This document shows positions 4,505-30,535 of a DNA stretch of 37,029 nt, piece after piece. Location: positions 1 through 37,029 of the forward strand of contig JANYCF010000186.1 of NCBI GenBank assembly GCA_025360455.1, given 5' to 3'. How positions within the stretch are numbered: the stretch's first letter is position 1; each line of letters opens with the position of its first letter. A program made the translations under genes and the position numbers. The notes below the pieces were generated by a model, which saw only the letters and a program-made list of their open reading frames with translations, was not told the origin of the DNA and searched no databases. This stretch comes from Opitutaceae bacterium (GTDB lineage: Bacteria; Verrucomicrobiota; Verrucomicrobiia; Opitutales; Opitutaceae).

Positions 4505-6346
4505 ATGGCGTCCAACTATACTGAAGCCAGCATCAAGACCCTCAGCTCCCTCGAGCATATTCGCCTCCGCCCCGGCATGTACATCGGGCGGCTCGGCAAC
4601 GGCAACCACGCCGAGGACGGCATCTACGTCCTCCTCAAGGAAACCATCGATAACTCCATCGACGAATTCACGATGGGCGTCGGCAAAAAAATCGAGGTCG
4701 AGCTCACCGAGCGCACCCTCCGCGTCCGCGATTACGGCCGCGGCATCCCCCTCGGCAAACTCGTGGACTGCGTCTCCATCATCAACACCGGCGCGAAGTA
4801 CGATTCGGAAACTTTCCAAAAAGCCGTCGGCCTAAACGGCGTCGGCCAGAAAGCCGTCAATGCCCTCGCCCTCGCCTACCGCGCCCAGGCCTTCCGCGAC
4901 GGCGAAACCCGCGTCGCCGAATTCGAGAAGGGCAAACTCAAGAAGGAATCGAAAACCACCAAGACCGACGAACGCAACGGTACGCTCATCGAGTTCACCC
5001 CCGACGAAGCGCTCTTCGGCACCGACTTCAAGTTCCGCACCGAGTTCATCGAAGACATGTTGTGGAACTACGCCTTCCTCAACCGCGGCCTCACCCTCAC
5101 CTTCAACGGCAAGCCCTTCAAATCCGAACACGGCCTCAAGGATCTCCTCACCAAGGAGCTCGCCGGCGAGCCCCTCTACCCGATCATCCATCTGGAAGGT
5201 GAAGACATCGAAGTCGCCCTCACCCACGGCAACCACTACGGCGAAGAATATTGGTCCTTCGTCAACGGCCAGCACACCACCATGGGCGGCACCCACCTCG
5301 CCTCCTTCCGCGAGGCGCTCGTCGAGACCATCCGCAATCATTTCAAAAAAGACTACGAAGCCGCCGACGTCCGCCAATCCATCGACGCCGCCATCGTCGT
5401 CCGCGTGCAGGAACCGGTTTTCGAATCCCAGACCAAGACCAAACTCGGCTCCAGCGACATGGGTCCGAAAGGCCCGTCGATCAAGGAATTCATCGGCAAG
5501 TTCATGCAGCAGTCGCTCGACACCTACCTGCACAAGAACCGCGAGACCGCCGAGATCATCAAAAAGAAAATCGAGGAGAACGAGCACGAGCGCAAGGAAC
5601 TCGCCGGCATCCGCAACATCGCCCGCGAACGCGCCAAGAAAGCGTCCCTCCACAATCGCAAACTCCGCGACTGCCGCCTCCACCTCGGCGATCGCAACCC
5701 GCGCTCCGAGGAAAGCTCCCTCTTCATCGTCGAAGGCGATTCCGCCGCCGGCTCCCTCACCTCCACCCGCGACGTGCAGACCCAAGCCGTCTTCGCCTTG
5801 AAAGGCAAACCGCTCAACACTTACGGCCTCACGAAAAAAGTCATCTACGAGAATGAGGAGTTTCATCTCCTCCAATCCGCGCTGAACATCGAGGACGGAC
5901 TCGACGGCCTCCGCTACAACAAGATCATCATCGCCACCGACGCCGACGTCGACGGCATGCACATCCGCCTGTTGTTGCTCTCGTTCTTCCTGCAATTTTT
6001 TCCCGACGTTATCCGCAACAATCACCTCTTCATTCTCGAAACCCCGCTCTTCCGAGTGCGCAACAAGAAGAAGACGATGTATTGTTACTCCGAGCAGGAG
6101 AAGCAGCAGGCGATGGCCGAGCTCGGCACCACCCACGAGATCACGCGCTTCAAGGGGCTCGGTGAAATCTCCGCCGGAGAATTCAAAGATTTCATCGGTG
6201 AAAACATCCGGCTGGATCCTGTCAGCCTGAACCATCTCGCCAGCAGCGACGAGTTGCTCTCGTTCTTCATGGGCAAGAACACGCCCGAGCGCCAGGACTT
6301 CATCATCGACAACCTCCGCGTCGAGAAAGACCTGATCGAAGCCTGA
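4505..6346 (+). CDS. parE: Type IIA DNA topoisomerase B subunit (ParE/GyrB-type ATPase)
   Basis: A 613-residue ATP-driven strand-passage subunit that alters DNA supercoiling or decatenates chromosomes together with an A subunit. The GHKL ATPase is clear: [11 protein letters not shown] with Glu46 and Asn50, DYGRGIP (77-82), [12 protein letters not shown] (109-120). The TOPRIM domain has EGDSAAGS (about 409) and TDADVDGMH (about 477). The linker text [17 protein letters not shown] and the stretch [20 protein letters not shown] match, from memory, the short Bacteroidetes/Chlamydiae-type ParE rather than classical GyrB, and the length fits ParE (about 630). The C-terminal metal and A-subunit contact region FKGLGEIS is present. 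The partner A subunit (parC/gyrA) is not the next gene. The long opposite-strand ORF at 4832-6412 is a shadow of this gene. Confidence 0.93.
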
Positions 6347-7326: not shown

Positions 7327-9756
7327 TTATTTTGCAAGGCGTTCCCGCATCGTTCCGGGCGGCAACAATTCGATGGCCAGCTCTTGGAGTCTCGGATCGG
7401 ATATTTCCAGGCCGAATTTTTTGGCCAGCAATTGCAGACGGAACAACGCCGCCGTAGTGAGCGAGCGTAATCGGATTTCATCCAGTCCGAGCAGACAATA
7501 TTGCACCTGAGTGCGCGCGAGATCGAAACGTTTCCCATGCGCGAGCACGATCGCCAGATTGACGCGACGCTCCCACGGCAGGACGGCAGCAGACTCGGGA
7601 TTGAAATTCGTCAGCAAGATTTTGAAGATGCTGGCAAAATCTCCTTTTTCACCCAACCCCGCCTCGACCAACGCCAAGGCGGTCAGGGCGCCAAGATCGC
7701 CCGTGAAGCGTTGCAATCCGGAGCGTGTCGCGGTGGCCAGATCCATCTGTCCGGTTTCGACAAAATATTCCGCGAGCCGGCTGAAAGCGACGGAAGGCTC
7801 CTGCTCGTCCACCACCTCCAGCACCACCACCGACTGTTTTTCAAATCCCCCGATCGCCGGCAGTGTATACGGCACCGGTCGCAACCAGGACGGCAGTGCC
7901 CAGCGGTGCAGCGCGACCATGAAGGAATTTTCCGCGCGCAGTGACCCTCTCTGCGCATACTGGTCCAGCATCCGATCCCATGAGGGAATCACGAGATAGG
8001 CGATCCCCCGTCGTTGCACCAAGGCCTGCGCTTCCTCGGGAGAGGTCGCGCTGGCGAGCCTCACCGCCGCCGCCAGACCATCGTGATTCTCCCAGGAAAA
8101 CGTCCCCACTCCACGCAGACCGCCATGGTAAGCCAACGTAGCGGTCACATTGGGCGGCGCGTAAACCACCGCACCCGCCGTTCCGGCCCGTTGCGCCAGC
8201 CAAACCGCCAAGTCCCGTTCGACCAATCCCTCCACGTCCACTTCATCGAGTGATTCCTCCGCCTTTTCGCGATGTTCGGGAATAAGTTCAAACACCCCCA
8301 AAGCCACAACTGCGGCAAGGCTGACGGACCACAAGCTGCGATTGCGCCAGTTATTTTCCGACTCCGCTGCCGCACTCGCGGCTACCAGCATTACCAGCAA
8401 CACGCCATCACACATACTCCATCCACTAAGCTGAAAGCACGCCAAGCCCAGCGCCAGCAGTACAGGCCCGAGCGCCACCGCAATCGCGGCACCTAAGCGC
8501 GGAATCGTGCGCCGGCGAAACAATATAATCACTGCTGGCACGATCAACAGCACCGGAAGAGTGGTCGCCGCCACCAATCGCGTGAAACCATCCTGCATAA
8601 CCCACGCCGCTAAATTGGGCGCGGCGAAATCGCTCAGGCAGGTCAAGCGCGTGGCGAGCGGATTCACCGTGAACAGACCGCGGGAATCGAGTCGGACCAT
8701 GGCGAGTGGCACTGCGGCGACAGCCAACAGCGCAAGCCCCACCCTTATTTTATCGCGAATTTTCCAATTCGGTCTGCTCCCGTACAACCAGTCCACCGCC
8801 CGCGCGAGGAGCTCAGTGCCACCGAGCCAGGCGCCCGCATAAAGCGGATGATTCACCTCCAATTGCCACCCGAGGTGCGAAGGAAAATATTCCATCACAT
8901 ACGCCGCGAGGCTCATCGCGGCACCACCCCAACCCCATGCGCGCCACGGCGGCACGCCCAGCGCCGCAACCGTCGGATTCATCTTCGATTCTTTCCGGGC
9001 CAACGCGGCGGAGAGGAGCGCGCCCAACCCAATACCCAGCAAAAGGGGAATCTGGCTGGAGGCATTGATCCAAAAGCCCAATCCGCCCATCTGCCCGGCG
9101 AGAAAAAACCAACGGCGTTGCCGCGAACGGAAATTGTTCGCCACCGCCGTCTTCGCCCCAAAAGCAGCGAGCAGGAGCAGCATGCTTTCGAGCGCACAGA
9201 TCCAAGCGAAGCCATGATGATCCGGTGCCCCGGGCAGAAATCCTCCCGCCAACGGGAAAATCGTCACGAGTCCGACGGCCAGCAGCACAGACGGAAAGAT
9301 CCCGAATTGCCAGGCCGTGAAAACCACCACTGCAACCAAACTCAACAAGTGCAGCAAAGGATCACCATAGAGCGCCGCCTGCTCCACCGAAAGCGCGAGC
9401 GAATGCCCAAAAACCGTTTGAGCGCAGCGCGCCATCAGTCCCAGCCACCACCGGTAAGGGGCCGGAGCATGCGTGACGCGACCCAGTGGCGCATTATCAT
9501 AATCGACTTGGCGCATACGCCACTCACCCCGCTCCAGCATCAGCCGGGTTTGCATGAGCCACTGGTAACTTTCGTTATTATGTTGCGGCACAATCAACCG
9601 CGATCGCCCGCTCGTGACCGCCGTTGACCATCCTGGCAAAGCCGAGACTTCTTCCACCCGGTGCAGCCGGGCAAGGTCCACCCAGATCAAAAATCCCAGC
9701 GCGCAAAGCGGGACAATAACCCAGATCGAAGCCAATCGCTGACGGAAAAATCTCAT
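7327..9756 (-). CDS. STT3-like GT-C family polytopic membrane protein with soluble C-terminal domain
   Basis: An 809-residue multi-pass inner-membrane protein. The first helix (about 11-26) is followed by a large extracytoplasmic loop with QVDYDNAPLGR, where Asp85/Asp87 would correspond to the first acidic motif of STT3/PglB-type oligosaccharyltransferases, then LPGAPDHHGFAW (DHH at 179-181), which resembles the second conserved STT3 motif. About ten further hydrophobic segments extend to near residue 490. The C-terminal 300 residues are soluble, with TFSWENHDGLAAA and a helical-repeat-like tail (from about 660). STT3-type enzymes move a lipid-linked glycan to an acceptor; the diagnostic WWDYG-type motif is not evident, so activity and acceptor are uncertain. 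It is divergent from the FG-GAP gene with about 150 bases between the starts. Confidence 0.7.
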   Translation of the reverse strand: MRFFRQRLASIWVIVPLCALGFLIWVDLARLHRVEEVSALPGWSTAVTSGRSRLIVPQHNNESYQWLMQTRLMLERGEWRMRQVDYDNAPLGRVTHAPAPYRWWLGLMARCAQTVFGHSLALSVEQAALYGDPLLHLLSLVAVVVFTAWQFGIFPSVLLAVGLVTIFPLAGGFLPGAPDHHGFAWICALESMLLLLAAFGAKTAVANNFRSRQRRWFFLAGQMGGLGFWINASSQIPLLLGIGLGALLSAALARKESKMNPTVAALGVPPWRAWGWGGAAMSLAAYVMEYFPSHLGWQLEVNHPLYAGAWLGGTELLARAVDWLYGSRPNWKIRDKIRVGLALLAVAAVPLAMVRLDSRGLFTVNPLATRLTCLSDFAAPNLAAWVMQDGFTRLVAATTLPVLLIVPAVIILFRRRTIPRLGAAIAVALGPVLLALGLACFQLSGWSMCDGVLLVMLVAASAAAESENNWRNRSLWSVSLAAVVALGVFELIPEHREKAEESLDEVDVEGLVERDLAVWLAQRAGTAGAVVYAPPNVTATLAYHGGLRGVGTFSWENHDGLAAAVRLASATSPEEAQALVQRRGIAYLVIPSWDRMLDQYAQRGSLRAENSFMVALHRWALPSWLRPVPYTLPAIGGFEKQSVVVLEVVDEQEPSVAFSRLAEYFVETGQMDLATATRSGLQRFTGDLGALTALALVEAGLGEKGDFASIFKILLTNFNPESAAVLPWERRVNLAIVLAHGKRFDLARTQVQYCLLGLDEIRLRSLTTAALFRLQLLAKKFGLEISDPRLQELAIELLPPGTMRERLAK

Positions 9757-9880
9757 GCAAAACGCAGTGTTGTTTTCATGGCAAACACCGACCGGCGGAT
9801 GCTCACAGGAAAAGGGGGTGCGGCAAGCAAAGTCAGAGGGAAAACACCGTTTTTTGCCCGGCCGAACCTTGACTCCGGAT

Positions 9881-9896
9881 CGGAATATTTATTCCG
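9881..9896. promoter_or_regulatory. Perfect 7-bp-arm palindrome before the FG-GAP gene
   Basis: CGGAATA-TT-TATTCCG is a perfect inverted repeat with a 2-base centre in the short divergent intergenic region, ending 11 bases before the chosen ATG at 9908. It could be a transcription-factor site acting on either divergent gene; no regulator is identified. Confidence 0.4.
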
Positions 9897-9907
9897 TTTT
9901 TTGCTTC

Positions 9908-12900
9908 ATGTTAGCCGCCACCACGACTCCGCGCCCGCTTGCCCAGGGGATCGCTCCGCTCCTCGTTCGCGGCCTGAGGCAAACGGGAATTTTTCTGGCC
10001 GGAATCACGGCCTTGGCCGCAGCCCCGACCGAACTCTTGACCGACGCGCCCCTCGCCCCTCGCTCCGGTCCGCGTGGTGCCACCCTGTTCACCGAACTGC
10101 TGCCGTCGCAAACCGGCGTGATCACGGAAAACAATTACGCCGACCCGGCGATGTGGTGGGAACGTTATCATGAATTTGAAGTCGGCGCGATCGGCACCGG
10201 CATCGCCATCGGGGATTACGACGGCGACAGCCGGCCCGACATTTATGTGGTGAGCAAGACGGAGAACGGCCGTCTGTTTCGCAATCTCGGCAATTGGAAA
10301 TTTGAAGAGGTCACGGCCCAGGCCGGACTGGGCGGAGCCGGCGGCACTTGGCAACAGGGCCTCGCTTGGGCCAAACGGTTGACGAAACAAACGACCGGAA
10401 CGGAAGACGCACCGGGAATTTGGAAACAAGGCGCGACCTGGGTGGATGTGAACAATGACGGCCGGCTTGATCTCTATGTGTGCCGGTTCGGTGCACCGAA
10501 TTTACTTTATATCAACCAAGGCGACGGCAGGTTCAAAGAAGAAGCGGCGGCGCGAGGACTCGCCTTAAACAGCGCGAGCGGCATGGCGGCCTTTTGCGAC
10601 TACGATCGCGACGGCTGGCTCGATGTCTATATCCAGACGAACCTGCTCGATGCGAACACGCATCCGAACGGTGAACGCGACCGCCTCTACCACAACAATC
10701 GCGACGGCACTTTCAGCGAGGTGACCGACCAAGCCGGAATTTCCGGCATGACGCAGGGCCACTCGGCCACCTGGTGGGATTATGATAACGACGGTTGGCC
10801 GGATCTCTATGTGGCCAATGATTTCGCGACGCCGGACCAGCTGTATCACAACAACCGCGACGGCACCTTCACCAACCGGATCGATCAGGTGGTGCCGCAC
10901 ACGCCTTTTTCTTCCATGGGCGCTGATCTCGGAGACGTGGACAACGACGGACGGCTCGATCTGCTCGTCGCCGACATGGCCGCCTCTTCCCACGAAAAAG
11001 ATCAGCGCGGCATGGCCGAATCCCGTTCACGCAACCGCTCCGAGCCGGCTGATTCCACCACGGCACCGCAATATACCCGCAGCGCACTCTACCTGAACAC
11101 CGGCACCGAGCACTGCCTGGAAGCCGCGCACCTCACCGGCCTCGACGCAACCGACTGGACTTGGTCCGTACGTTTCGAGGATCTCGACAACGACGGCCGG
11201 CTCGATCTGCACCTCACCAATGGAATGTTTCGCGAGCCGCACAACGTGGATCTGCTCGACAGTGTGATGAGCGCGGAAACTCCGGCCGAGCGAATCAAAC
11301 TCATCCGCTCCAGTCCGGTTTTTGCCGAAACCCATTTTGCGTTCCGCAATCTCGGCGATCTGCACTTTGAGAACTGCGCCCACGCCTGGGGACTCGATCA
11401 AACCGGCGTCAGCTTTGGCGCCGCCTTCGGCGACTTCGATGGCGACGGTGATCTCGATCTGGTGTATGCCAACTATCAGGGCGGCGTGACGCTATTGCGC
11501 AATGACAGTGATTCCGGCCATCGCATCACTCTCGGTTTACGCGGCACCGTTTCCAACCGCTTCGGAGTCGGGGCCACGATCCGGATAGAAAGCGAGTCGG
11601 GCGTTCAGGTCCGCCAGCTCGTGCTGGCGCGCGGCTATCTTTCCAGCAGCGAACCCATGGTGCACTTCGGGCTGGGCAACGATGCCATCATCCAACGCCT
11701 GACGGTCACCTGGCCCAGCGGTCACGTGCAAGAATTTGCCCACCTGCCCGTCGACCGCCACTTCACCATTACAGAACCATCGGCGGTGATCGCACTCCCG
11801 GCTCAAAGCGCGTCTCCTGCGTTTGGGCAATTTTCAGAAATCAGCCAAAGCTCCGGACTGTCACTCCTCTCCCGCGAAACGGTGGTGGATGAAAACGTGC
11901 AACAACCCTTGCTCCCGATTCGCCACAACCGGAACGGTCCGGGCCTCGCCATCGGGGATTTCAACGGCGATGGCGCCGACGATATTTGGATCGGCGGAAC
12001 CGCCGCCAACCCTGCGCGCATCCAGCTGAACACGGGAATCGGAAAATTCGAATCCATACTTCACCTGCCGCCAACGCTCGCTCCCGCCGTCAACGACGGC
12101 CCCGCCTTGGTTTTGGATTTCAACGGCGACGGGGCCAATGATTTGCTGATCACGAAAGGCGGGGCGAGTCGGCCGGCCAATGATTCCGGTTATCAACCCG
12201 AACTCTTGCTCAACGATGGGCATGGGCTGCTGCAACGGGCACCGGCTGGAAGTCTTCCGGCGCTGACCATGAGTGCCGGCACCCTCACCGCCGCCGATTT
12301 CAATCGCGACGGCCAGCTCGATATTTTCATCGGCGCTCGGCTGATCCCCGGAAAATATCCCGCCGCGCCGCGCAGCGCTTTGCTCGTCAATCACGGCGGA
12401 CGTTTCGAAGACGTGACGGATTCCCTCGCGCCCGGATTGCGCACCGTCGGGCTGGTGACGTCCGCCTTGTGGAGCGACGTCGATACGGACGGCTGGCCCG
12501 ACCTCATGCTCACACTGGAATGGGGCCAAGTGAAATATTTCCACAACAATCTCGGCCGGGGATTTTCCGACTGGACGGAGCAGGCCGGCTTCGCCGCTGC
12601 CGGCACCGGCTGGTGGACGTCTCTCGCGACGGCCGATTTTAATGGCGATGGCCGGCCCGACTTTGTCGCGGGTAACGCCGGCTTGAACACTCCCTATCAC
12701 GCGAGTCCGACGGAGCCGGCGTTGCTCTACGCCGGGGACTTCAAGGATGGCGGCGCACCGCAGCTAATCGAAGCGTATCACGAGGGCGAAAAGATTTTTC
12801 CATGGCGCACCCGGAAGGATCTCAGTCAGGCCGTCGGATCGTTGCGCAAACGCTTTCCCAAAAATAACGATTACGCCAAAGCCACCCTCGGTGAATTAGT

Positions 12901-13603
12901 GGGCGAAGCCCGCCTCGCCGCCGCCCAACGGTTCGCCGCCACGGAATTTCGCAGTGGCGTTTTTCTCAGCCAAGCCGACGGATGCTACCGCTTCGAAGCG
13001 CTCCCGCCGTTGGTGCAAATCGCCCCGATGCAAGGCGTGGTCGCCGGCGATTTCGACGGCGATGGCTATGCCGATATCTATGCTGTGCAAAATTCTTACG
13101 CGCCTATTCCCAGCATCGGCCGGTTTGACGGCGGACTGAGCCAGCTGCTGCGCGGCGATGGGCACGGACATTTCACCCCGGTGCCCCTGACGGAAAGTGG
13201 ACTCCTCGTGCCGGGTGACGCGAAGGCGCTGGGGGTATTCGATTTGAATCAAGACGGCTGGCCCGATTTTTTTGTCACACGCAACAACGACACCACTCTG
13301 GCTTTTCAAAACCGCGGGGTGGCCGGACGGCATTCCCTGCGAGTCCTGTTGCATGGGCCGGCCGGCAATCCGACGGGAGTCGGCGCACAAATCACACTAG
13401 AACTCTCCCACGGCTTATGGCAGACCAGCGAAGTTCAAGCGGGTTCAGGTTTTTCCAGCCAGTCTGCCGCCGCGTGTTTTTTTGGCTGGCCGGAAAATAA
13501 TCCTCCTCGCCACATCAGGGTCCGTTGGCCATCAGGCACCATCACCCAACATGAAGTGTCGCTGACGGCGACCACCTTGGTTTTGTCCTGTCAGGATCAT
13601 TGA
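9908..13603 (+). CDS. Secreted double FG-GAP/ASPIC (UnbV-like) beta-propeller protein
   Basis: The start is moved from the track's 9755 to the ATG at 9908, where a basic stretch and a hydrophobic segment ending GITALAAAP look like an export signal; the 51 upstream residues overlap the divergent promoter region. The mature part is made of two modules. Module 1 has seven DxDxDG-type loops (for example DYDGDSRPD, DYDNDGWPD, DFDGDGDLD) followed by an ASPIC/UnbV domain ending in VTWPSGHVQEF (nt about 11517-11775). Module 2 has seven more loops (DFNGDGADD to DLNQDGWPD) and a second ASPIC domain ending RVRWPSGTITQHEV. Such loops bind calcium in integrin-like propellers. The protein is probably extracellular or outer-membrane attached and may bind or process polymers; the true role is unknown. 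Confidence 0.85.
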   Translation: MLAATTTPRPLAQGIAPLLVRGLRQTGIFLAGITALAAAPTELLTDAPLAPRSGPRGATLFTELLPSQTGVITENNYADPAMWWERYHEFEVGAIGTGIAIGDYDGDSRPDIYVVSKTENGRLFRNLGNWKFEEVTAQAGLGGAGGTWQQGLAWAKRLTKQTTGTEDAPGIWKQGATWVDVNNDGRLDLYVCRFGAPNLLYINQGDGRFKEEAAARGLALNSASGMAAFCDYDRDGWLDVYIQTNLLDANTHPNGERDRLYHNNRDGTFSEVTDQAGISGMTQGHSATWWDYDNDGWPDLYVANDFATPDQLYHNNRDGTFTNRIDQVVPHTPFSSMGADLGDVDNDGRLDLLVADMAASSHEKDQRGMAESRSRNRSEPADSTTAPQYTRSALYLNTGTEHCLEAAHLTGLDATDWTWSVRFEDLDNDGRLDLHLTNGMFREPHNVDLLDSVMSAETPAERIKLIRSSPVFAETHFAFRNLGDLHFENCAHAWGLDQTGVSFGAAFGDFDGDGDLDLVYANYQGGVTLLRNDSDSGHRITLGLRGTVSNRFGVGATIRIESESGVQVRQLVLARGYLSSSEPMVHFGLGNDAIIQRLTVTWPSGHVQEFAHLPVDRHFTITEPSAVIALPAQSASPAFGQFSEISQSSGLSLLSRETVVDENVQQPLLPIRHNRNGPGLAIGDFNGDGADDIWIGGTAANPARIQLNTGIGKFESILHLPPTLAPAVNDGPALVLDFNGDGANDLLITKGGASRPANDSGYQPELLLNDGHGLLQRAPAGSLPALTMSAGTLTAADFNRDGQLDIFIGARLIPGKYPAAPRSALLVNHGGRFEDVTDSLAPGLRTVGLVTSALWSDVDTDGWPDLMLTLEWGQVKYFHNNLGRGFSDWTEQAGFAAAGTGWWTSLATADFNGDGRPDFVAGNAGLNTPYHASPTEPALLYAGDFKDGGAPQLIEAYHEGEKIFPWRTRKDLSQAVGSLRKRFPKNNDYAKATLGELVGEARLAAAQRFAATEFRSGVFLSQADGCYRFEALPPLVQIAPMQGVVAGDFDGDGYADIYAVQNSYAPIPSIGRFDGGLSQLLRGDGHGHFTPVPLTESGLLVPGDAKALGVFDLNQDGWPDFFVTRNNDTTLAFQNRGVAGRHSLRVLLHGPAGNPTGVGAQITLELSHGLWQTSEVQAGSGFSSQSAAACFFGWPENNPPRHIRVRWPSGTITQHEVSLTATTLVLSCQDH

Positions 13604-26060: not shown

Positions 26061-27281
26061 ATGAAACGACCCTCTTCCCAATGCGTCACCCTGATGGGGC
26101 TCGCGCTCGTCTGCTTCGTTGGCGGTTGCACCTCGACGCCGACGGAGTATCGAGAGCCGCCGCCACTCGCCGCCACCGCGCGCTCGTCCTACAACTTGCG
26201 GGTGTTCGAGCGTACCTGGCAGTTGGTGAATAAAAAATACTTCGACGCCCATTTTCGCGGCGTCGACTGGCCGGCCATGCGCATCAAATATCGGCCGGAA
26301 GCTATCGCCGCACCGAATGAGGAAGCCCTCTACCAGGTGTTGAAGCGTCTGTGCGCGGAATTAAAAGAGTCGCACCTTGCGGCCATCCCGCCCCGCCGGG
26401 CGCACGAATTCAGCACGGAACATCGCGCCAGCGTTGGTTTGCGCTGGCAATTGCTCGAAGGCCAGCGGGTTGTCATCGACGTCCTGCCCGCCAGCCCGGC
26501 GGCGTCCGCGGGCGTTCGCCCGGGTTGGCTCGTGCTCTCACGCAATGACACTCCCCTCCAGGAGAAAGACACCTACATCACCAAGCTCCATCAACCCGTC
26601 ACCTATGGCTTTCTCGATGAGCATGACCAACCTCGATCTCTCACGCTGGAGCCGCAGCTGCTGAATTTTGATCGGCTGGAAGTGCGCGAACTCTCTGACG
26701 GCTATCTCTCCCTTCGCTTTGACGTCTTCAGTCACACCTCGCTCCATTGGCTGAGCGAGCAGCTCAAAGCTCATGCGACCGCTCGCGGAGTGGTGATCGA
26801 TCTGCGCAGCAATCCGGGGGGGAATATTTTGGCGCTGAACGTGGCGTTGGCAGAATTTTTTCCCAAATCGGTTGCCGCGGGACGCATGATTAAACGCAAC
26901 GGCCATGAGAGCGAAAACCATAGTCTGGCTTGGTTGTCGGCCCGCTATGCCGGCCGGGTCGTGATCCTGACCGACCACCCCACCGGCAGTGCAGCGGAAA
27001 TTTTCAGCCATGTACTGCACTATCATCACCGCGCTACAGTGATTGGCCAACCAACCGCAGGCGCGGTGATCGCGTCACGGCTTTACTCGTTGCCCGGTGG
27101 TGGGCGTTTGCAGGTGCCGGTGACAGATTACATCGGACTTGATGGTCATCGTCTCGAAGGTCGCGGCGTCACGCCTGACGTGGTGCGCCCGGCTCGCACG
27201 CTCGCCGAGTTGCGCGCGCAACAGGATCCCGATCTGGTGGCAGCGCTGGAAATATTGCAGCAAGCGCAGCCGGAGAAATGA
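26061..27281 (+). CDS. Lipoprotein S41-family peptidase with tricorn-like catalytic residues
   Basis: A 406-residue protein with a lipobox FVGGC (Cys23), so lipid-anchored in the envelope. An N-terminal helical part is followed by a PDZ-like domain (about 120-200, with PASPAASAGVRPGW) and the S41 core: DLRSNPGGN (247-255), TGSAAEIF (Ser310), GQPTAGAV. In CtpA/Prc the general base Lys lies 25 residues after the Ser; here that position is Ala335. Instead SH at 104-105 and Glu in HRLEGRGVTPD (366) match the Ser-His/Ser/Glu arrangement I recall for tricorn protease. Such enzymes cut C-terminal regions of envelope proteins. Convergent with the phosphofructokinase gene. Activity is inferred, not shown. 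Confidence 0.85.
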   Translation: MKRPSSQCVTLMGLALVCFVGGCTSTPTEYREPPPLAATARSSYNLRVFERTWQLVNKKYFDAHFRGVDWPAMRIKYRPEAIAAPNEEALYQVLKRLCAELKESHLAAIPPRRAHEFSTEHRASVGLRWQLLEGQRVVIDVLPASPAASAGVRPGWLVLSRNDTPLQEKDTYITKLHQPVTYGFLDEHDQPRSLTLEPQLLNFDRLEVRELSDGYLSLRFDVFSHTSLHWLSEQLKAHATARGVVIDLRSNPGGNILALNVALAEFFPKSVAAGRMIKRNGHESENHSLAWLSARYAGRVVILTDHPTGSAAEIFSHVLHYHHRATVIGQPTAGAVIASRLYSLPGGGRLQVPVTDYIGLDGHRLEGRGVTPDVVRPARTLAELRAQQDPDLVAALEILQQAQPEK

Positions 27282-28634: not shown

Positions 28635-29029
28635 GGTAATAGAGGGAAATGAAACCGGACTTTCCCGTTCCCCGCGTCTGAGGTCAAGAACGGGCTTGGG
28701 GGCAACGCCGGGGAGTAGCGCCTATTCTCAACCTCATAACCCCACCGATAAACCTCGATCGACACCGCCCAGGGACAACCGGAGAAGCACGAAAGGTTAT
28801 TCTGGTTGGTTCGAAGCAGCGGCTGGCGTCCCTGCCTGCCGGGTTAGGACGCACCTCCTCCGAACCACAGGCCTCCGGGCCTTTGGCTACGTCAAAACAT
28901 TCTCCATGATCCATCGGAAATAGCGAAGAGCCGTTATTCTTTAGTAATGATCGCGATGCTCTTGCGACGGGCTTTCCGCAGCTTACCAGTAAGAATGTGA
29001 TTTACCCCTCACTTCTCTGCCGCACGGCC
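28635..29029. other. 395-base divergent gap with nested inverted repeats
   Basis: No gene is supported. It contains a nested palindrome (28808-28866) and a small family A-like hairpin (28869-28882). Candidate promoter boxes for the phosphofructokinase or the propeller gene could not be fixed by eye. Confidence 0.45.
28808..28882. repeat. Nested inverted-repeat element with family A and B cores
   Basis: GGTTCG (28808-28813) pairs with CGAACC (28861-28866); inside, GCGTCC (28826-28831) pairs with GGACGC (28847-28852). The GGCGTCCCTGCC piece (28825-28836) matches family B. Next to it AGGCC-TCCG-GGCCT (28869-28882) resembles the family A loop. Confidence 0.5.
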
Positions 29030-30535
29030 ATGGCTTCGCGCCGGCCTTTGATTTGGATTTTAGTATCGCTGTTCATCTTCGCCGGTCTGTCTGCGGCCGT
29101 TACGGAAACGCCAGTCCCCGATCTCGGATTGTTTTCCGGGCACACGGATATCGACACACCCCAGCAAGCCGGCAGCGTCGCGTTCGATGCCGCGTCCGGC
29201 ACCTACACCATCGGAGGCGGTGGGGTGAACATGTGGTTCAAGCGCGATTCGTTTCACTACGTGTGGAAAAAAATCGAAGGCGATATTGCCCTCGCCGCCG
29301 ACATCGCTTTCGCCGGCCAGGGTGGCGATCCGCACCGCAAAGCCTGCCTGATGATTCGTGAAAGTCTCGCAGCTGATTCGGTCTATGCCGATGTCGCATT
29401 TCATGGCGATGGTCTCACCTCACTGCAATTTCGCGAAGTTGGCGGCGATATCACCCGCGAAGTCCAGACTTCGATCAAAGCCCCGCACCGCCTGCGCCTA
29501 GAAAAAGTCGGCGATACCCTTTATATGTCACTCGCCGGAGTCGACGGCGAACTGCAACCCTCGGGTTGCTCGGTACGATTGCCGTTCAAAGGTTCGTTTT
29601 ATATCGGCCTCGGCGTGTGTGCGCATAAGGCCGACGCGTTTGAGTCCGCCGTGTTTTCCCATGTGCAACTCACGCCTCCTTCCCAAGCCGTCACGGCGGT
29701 ACGCAGTTCACTCGAATATATCGTGGTCGCCTCGCGGGACCGACGAAGTGTTTATCATTCGAATGAGGTCATCGAAGCGCCTAACTGGACGCGCGATGGT
29801 TCCGCGCTGATCTTTAACGGCGGCGGGCGCCTCTACCGACTCCCGTTCGCAGGTGGCACGAAGCCAGCCTTGATCGACGCCGGCTTTGCCGTCGACAGCA
29901 ACAACGACCACGGCCTCTCCCCCGATGGACAAACTCTCATCGTCAGTGATCGCAGCCAAGACGGCCAAGCCCATCTCTACACCTTGCCCCTCACGGGTGG
30001 CACGCCCAAGAAAATCACGCCGCATGCACCGTCTTACTGGCTCGCGTGGTCACCCGACGGCCGGACGCTGATCTACTACGCCGAGCGCGGCGGCAAGGCC
30101 GGGCTCTACACGATGCCACTCGCCGGGGGTGAGGAAAAAATTCTCGCCGGCACGGAAGCGCAGGACAACGGCCCCGATTATTCACCCGACGGACAATGGA
30201 TTTATTTCAACTCGGCCCGCTCCGGCCACATGCAGATTTGGCGGATGCATCCGGACAGCTCAGGCTTGGAGCAGATCACCCAAGACGAATACAACAACTG
30301 GTACGCCCACCCTTCGCCCGATGGAAAATGGATCGTCTTCCTCAGTTACGCGCCCGGCATCAAAGGCCACCCGGCCGACCAGGACGTGATCCTGCGCCTC
30401 TGGCCCACTGCGGGCGGCGAGATCACGGTGTTGACCAAACTTTTCGGCGGCCAAGGCACGATCAACGCGCCTTCGTGGTCGCCCGACAGCACGAAGATTG
30501 CCTACATGCGTTATCAGCCCGCGCAGAAAAAATAA
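29030..30535 (+). CDS. Exported protein: DUF1349-like domain plus TolB-type PD40 propeller
   Basis: The ATG at 29030 (MASRRPLIWILVSLFIFAG) is preferred to the GTG at 28997 because a signal peptide follows directly; the mature protein starts near VTETPVPD. Residues about 35-225 form a beta-sandwich like the C-terminal domain of the Ig-repeat protein (MIRESLAADSVYADVAF, YIGLGVCAHK). Residues about 235-500 carry about six WD40-like PD40 blades with the SPDG signature (LSPDGQTLIVSD, SPDGRTLIYY, SPDGQWIYFNS, SPDGKWIVFL, SPDSTKIAYM), as in the TolB propeller. The protein is probably periplasmic or secreted and may bind or sense an envelope polymer. It begins a likely operon; the next gene starts 18 bases after its stop. 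Confidence 0.85.
   Translation: MASRRPLIWILVSLFIFAGLSAAVTETPVPDLGLFSGHTDIDTPQQAGSVAFDAASGTYTIGGGGVNMWFKRDSFHYVWKKIEGDIALAADIAFAGQGGDPHRKACLMIRESLAADSVYADVAFHGDGLTSLQFREVGGDITREVQTSIKAPHRLRLEKVGDTLYMSLAGVDGELQPSGCSVRLPFKGSFYIGLGVCAHKADAFESAVFSHVQLTPPSQAVTAVRSSLEYIVVASRDRRSVYHSNEVIEAPNWTRDGSALIFNGGGRLYRLPFAGGTKPALIDAGFAVDSNNDHGLSPDGQTLIVSDRSQDGQAHLYTLPLTGGTPKKITPHAPSYWLAWSPDGRTLIYYAERGGKAGLYTMPLAGGEEKILAGTEAQDNGPDYSPDGQWIYFNSARSGHMQIWRMHPDSSGLEQITQDEYNNWYAHPSPDGKWIVFLSYAPGIKGHPADQDVILRLWPTAGGEITVLTKLFGGQGTINAPSWSPDSTKIAYMRYQPAQKK

Follow-up and report, generated by a model that had tools for sequence, protein, structure and literature searches.

A lipoprotein of peptidase family S41 with the active-site columns of tricorn protease in an Opitutaceae bacterium: a probable lysine-free envelope protease

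Introduction

Tricorn protease proper has two N-terminal beta-propellers and forms a hexameric toroid, and in its active site Glu1023 reaches His746 through Ser745. Catalysis of this kind, with a histidine and without the lysine of the C-terminal processing peptidases, is already known and common in peptidase family S41. The nisin resistance protein (NSR), a lysine-free S41 peptidase, has a Ser236-His98 dyad that is backed by mutation, and its authors saw no lysine or aspartate nearby (PMC4698656), while the likewise lysine-free CPAF uses a water-mediated triad of His105, Ser499 and Glu558 (PMC8787135). Beyond NSR and CPAF, a literature search for lysine-free S41 peptidases as a class returned little.

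Here we describe an S41 peptidase gene from an Opitutaceae bacterium, located in a window (the whole stretch of DNA that was analysed) of 37,029 nucleotides. Its product is probably a lipid-anchored serine protease of the cell envelope from the tricorn-type branch of the family, which lacks the catalytic lysine.

Gene and domain organisation

The gene occupies positions 26061 to 27281 of the forward strand as an open frame of 406 codons and has orthologues in Opitutaceae and Opitutales. Two Pfam domains were found above their cut-offs, namely Tricorn_C1 (PF14684, 2.3e-9, 37.4 bits against a cut-off of 24) at residues 48-97 (26202-26351) and, following this domain and a PDZ-like stretch, the catalytic core Peptidase_S41 (PF03572, 8.7e-29) at residues 222-375 (26724-27185). 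The PF03572 match and an invariant serine, Ser310 in the motif TGSAAE, place the protein in family S41, and all Ctp/Prc NCBIfam models scored far below their own cut-offs on it. According to Pfam there is no beta-propeller within the 406 residues.

Codons 1-23 (26061-26129) encode a predicted lipoprotein signal peptide that ends in the lipobox VGG-C23. Gly22-Cys23 follows a hydrophobic helix, modelled by AlphaFold2 at residues 6-21, and is invariant in 13/13 aligned orthologues, and with such a signal peptide and lipobox cysteine the product is predicted to be a bacterial lipoprotein. The envelope anchoring proposed in an initial annotation of this DNA is thus supported by a conserved lipobox. 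As for its description of the product as a PDZ lipoprotein, the PDZ-like stretch at about residues 137-178 (26469-26594) was detected by profile only, in a comparison of the orthologue profile with DegP-type PDZ chains (E ~3e-6), but not by Pfam at an E-value of 0.001.

The AlphaFold2 model, built from 37 aligned sequences, is a confident one (pLDDT 94.8, pTM 0.90) and supports a predicted S41 fold. The matches listed by Foldseek for this model are S41 structures, amongst which 4ghn (0.66) and CPAF (0.63) have the highest TM-scores and CtpA, Prc and D1 protease lower ones; when ordered by E-value, the Ser-Lys enzymes D1 protease and CtpA come first, a rank that reflects the overall fold. In the model, His105 is located in a loop after helix 87-99, Ser310 at the start of helix 311-321, and Glu366 in a loop after strand 349-358.

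Active-site residues and their counterparts in tricorn protease

Translation of the gene places Ser104-His105 (26370-26375), Ser310 (26988-26990), Ala335 (27063-27065) and Glu366 in LEGRGVTPD (27156-27158) at the residue numbers given initially, and the correspondence to tricorn Ser745, His746, Ser965 and Glu1023 proposed there proved right at all four positions by profile and pairwise alignment. A bacterial tricorn homologue aligns with PDB entry 1n6d at 1.6e-31, and by residue counting in this alignment Ser310 shares its column with tricorn Ser965, and Glu366 with Glu1023, the spacing being 56 residues in the present protein and 58 in tricorn (1n6d numbering). A profile made from five bacterial tricorn homologues and the protein studied here matches residues 662-1039 of 1k32 (3e-42), and in this match tricorn Ser745-His746 falls on the Ser-His column. 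The protein therefore has Ser-His, Ser and Glu, the residues that define the tricorn type, at the tricorn columns.

The GKG lysine that lies 25 residues after the nucleophile in the Ser-Lys C-terminal processing peptidases, and serves as the general base in CtpA and Prc, is replaced by Ala335. The absence of this lysine, stressed in the initial annotation, is thus real, but it is not an anomaly: tricorn has a glycine at the same column (Gly990, 25 residues after Ser965), and since tricorn itself does without the lysine, its absence is normal, and indeed the rule, in this branch of S41. As for a lysine elsewhere near Ser310, which would speak against a lysine-free mechanism, none lies within 31 residues in the sequence, the nearest being Lys278, and the 13-member orthologue alignment contains no substitute lysine at an invariant or nearly invariant position. 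Lys102, three residues before His105, was considered as such a substitute and rejected, as it is not conserved among the orthologues.

Histidine-type and lysine-type S41 peptidases

For comparison, 93 S41 sequences, mainly from the phylum of the host, were gathered with the sequences of the family itself. The GKG lysine is present in 31 of the 93, with Ser-His in none of these and a glutamate at column 366 in three, whereas 59 sequences that lack GKG and have the nucleophile show Ser-His in 44 and the glutamate in 52 cases; because the sample was drawn from one phylum by the family's own sequences and its rows are related, these counts describe the split and give no probability. Within this sample, Ser-His together with the glutamate at column 366 separates the histidine type from the lysine type. 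In the tree, the lysine enzymes fall into one clade (SH-aLRT 97), including a few that deviate slightly from the GKG motif, and outside of it are found the tricorn homologues, the clade of the present protein and other Opitutaceae lineages with Ser-His, the deep forks being weakly supported. A lysine-free S41 peptidase is nothing odd, as the family has a large histidine-type branch. The three other S41 genes of the host are all of the lysine type.

Seven sampled proteins combine Ser-His and the glutamate with a lysine at position +25, in the form of GKA, GKV or GKC in place of GKG, and these proteins with both candidate bases could be intermediates or a product of chance. Three other S41 homologues have the nucleophile serine replaced by glycine or phenylalanine in the alignment and are possibly inactive.

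The orthologue clade and the variable residue 104

In whole-genome searches, which covered some 390 genomes from the host's phylum, the orthologue subfamily was limited to the family and order of the host. One named orthologue, the single orthologue given by a contig scan of genomes with this protein alone as query, belongs to Oleiharenicola sp. (Opitutaceae). None of the 17 clade members departs from His105 or Ser310, and 16 of them (12 of 13 in the first alignment) keep Glu366, the exception being a glutamine in a member on a long branch; at position 335 there is Ala, Ser, Val, Asn or Gln but never Lys. Residue 104, in turn, is Ser in ten members, Arg in three, Ala in two, and Glu and Pro in one each, and on the clade tree at least four changes between serine and non-serine are required, and six for the identity of the residue itself.

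The residues of the catalytic tetrad suggested initially are all present in this protein but are not a conserved set: with another residue in place of Ser104 in 7/17 clade members, the clade does not work by a strict tetrad, and since His105, Ser310 and Glu366 (16/17) are kept, a His-Ser-Glu set with an optional Ser104 fits better. Judged from conservation, the catalytically needed set is probably His-Ser-Glu, with Ser104 as an optional relay.

The variation of Ser104 would also agree with a plain Ser-His dyad, in which Glu366 and Ser104 are structural rather than catalytic, and so would the glutamine at position 366 in one clade member and the precedent of NSR, which works with His98 and Ser236 and has no lysine or aspartate nearby (PMC4698656). 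However, such a dyad is improbable, given that the glutamate at column 366 goes with the histidine type (52/59) and is rare in the lysine enzymes (3/31), figures that describe the sample, and that Glu366 aligns with tricorn Glu1023.

Conservation likewise bears on whether the protein is active at all. Glu313 and the residues D247, R249, N251, G253 and G254 of the DLRxNxGG loop are invariant in the 13-member alignment, and the identity between orthologues falls to about 34%. An S41 homologue without catalytic activity, binding a ligand or a peptide like interphotoreceptor retinoid-binding protein (IRBP), might be suspected from the best PDB match by total score, retinol-binding protein 3, whose four repeats inflate this score; yet histidine, serine, glutamate and the DLRxNxGG loop are kept in spite of this divergence, and some loss would be expected in a dead protein, which makes this reading quite improbable.

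With His-Ser-Glu as the preferred set, the conservation of these three residues and the variation at the place of tricorn Ser745 lead us to infer that the clade probably uses both relay styles. It may even represent, as a tentative proposal, a natural series leading from a tricorn relay (Glu-Ser-His-Ser) to a CPAF-like relay (Glu-water-His-Ser) and including charged residues beside the base. The varying residue 104 thus provides natural variants for testing the need for the serine of the tricorn tetrad.

Genomic context

The gene has no immediate neighbour on its own strand: a gene for an Ig/fn3 protein upstream and a phosphofructokinase gene downstream are both on the other strand, and neither of these immediate neighbours recurs beside the orthologues. 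At 11 of the 17 loci examined the orthologue lies near parE on the same strand, with parC also nearby in eight. In the window, parE (4505-6346) has the same orientation as the S41 gene and lies about 20 kb upstream of it; another contig carries parC. However, in several relatives without the S41 gene parE and parC are adjacent or a few kb apart, and the nearness of parE and parC therefore looks like an insertion site and not a functional link; the interval between the two genes looks prone to insertion. With immediate neighbours that do not recur and a parE/parC nearness of this kind, the neighbourhood was discarded as a functional clue.

In many Opitutaceae the S41 lipoprotein gene lies between or beside parE and parC, which are topoisomerase IV-like. 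The interval of about 20 kb between parE and the S41 gene in the window contains genes for a TonB receptor, an ASPIC/UnbV FG-GAP protein, LacI and XylR-like regulators and a GH97 protein; positions 9755-13603 encode a protein of 1282 aa with FG-GAP and ASPIC/UnbV repeats.

A PD40 beta-propeller protein is encoded at 28997-30535, in the same orientation as the S41 gene and 1.7 kb downstream of it. As tricorn contains beta-propellers, the S41 core and this protein might be imagined to work together as a split tricorn, but the phosphofructokinase gene on the other strand lies between them and a propeller gene is not a recurrent neighbour of the orthologues, so that this idea, lacking a conserved association, was rejected as extremely improbable.

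Proposed mechanism

Taken as an active, lipid-anchored, tricorn-type S41 protease, which is the probable reading, the protein would use Ser310 as nucleophile and His105, which adjoins the N-terminal helical (C1) domain, as general base. Glu366 would orient and charge His105, in the present protein probably via Ser104 as in tricorn, and in orthologues without Ser104 it might contact the histidine itself or reach it via a water molecule, as in CPAF. The oxyanion region is likely formed by the DLRxNxGG loop; the PDZ-like stretch probably gates or guides the substrate, which we infer to be periplasmic proteins or peptides.

Comparison with known systems

With CtpA, CtpB, Prc and D1 protease the protein shares the overall fold, PDZ, the nucleophile motif and the DLRxNxGG loop; however, these enzymes have a lysine at position +25 where the present protein has Ala335, and Ser-His and Glu366 instead. 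The putative S41 proteases 4ghn, 4l8k and 8vcb from Bacteroides match by family profile, 4ghn having the highest TM-score listed (0.66), but the identity with 4ghn is about 16%; comparison with these three was by family profile and, for 4ghn, by fold.

SaNSR (Ser236, His98) is likewise an S41 protein with a histidine as base and no lysine, but its site has been described as a dyad in which no acidic residue takes part in catalysis, and it has a layout of helical bundle and cap, and is specific for nisin. CPAF of Chlamydia is a lysine-free S41 enzyme with His-Ser-Glu, a similar Ser-Glu spacing (59 versus 56) and a TM-score of 0.63, but is larger, has other inserts and shows 12-13% identity in the fold alignment.

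Tricorn of Thermoplasma acidophilum (1k32/1n6d), with about 1,071 aa, is cytosolic and has beta-propellers, whereas the present protein has 406 aa, a lipobox and no propeller; moreover, tricorn homologues form a separate clade from it, and the serine of Ser-His is not conserved in its orthologues. Nevertheless, tricorn and its bacterial homologues have in common with it the C1 domain, PDZ and the S41 core, together with Ser-His, Ser and Glu at the same columns and the lack of the lysine (Gly990 in tricorn).
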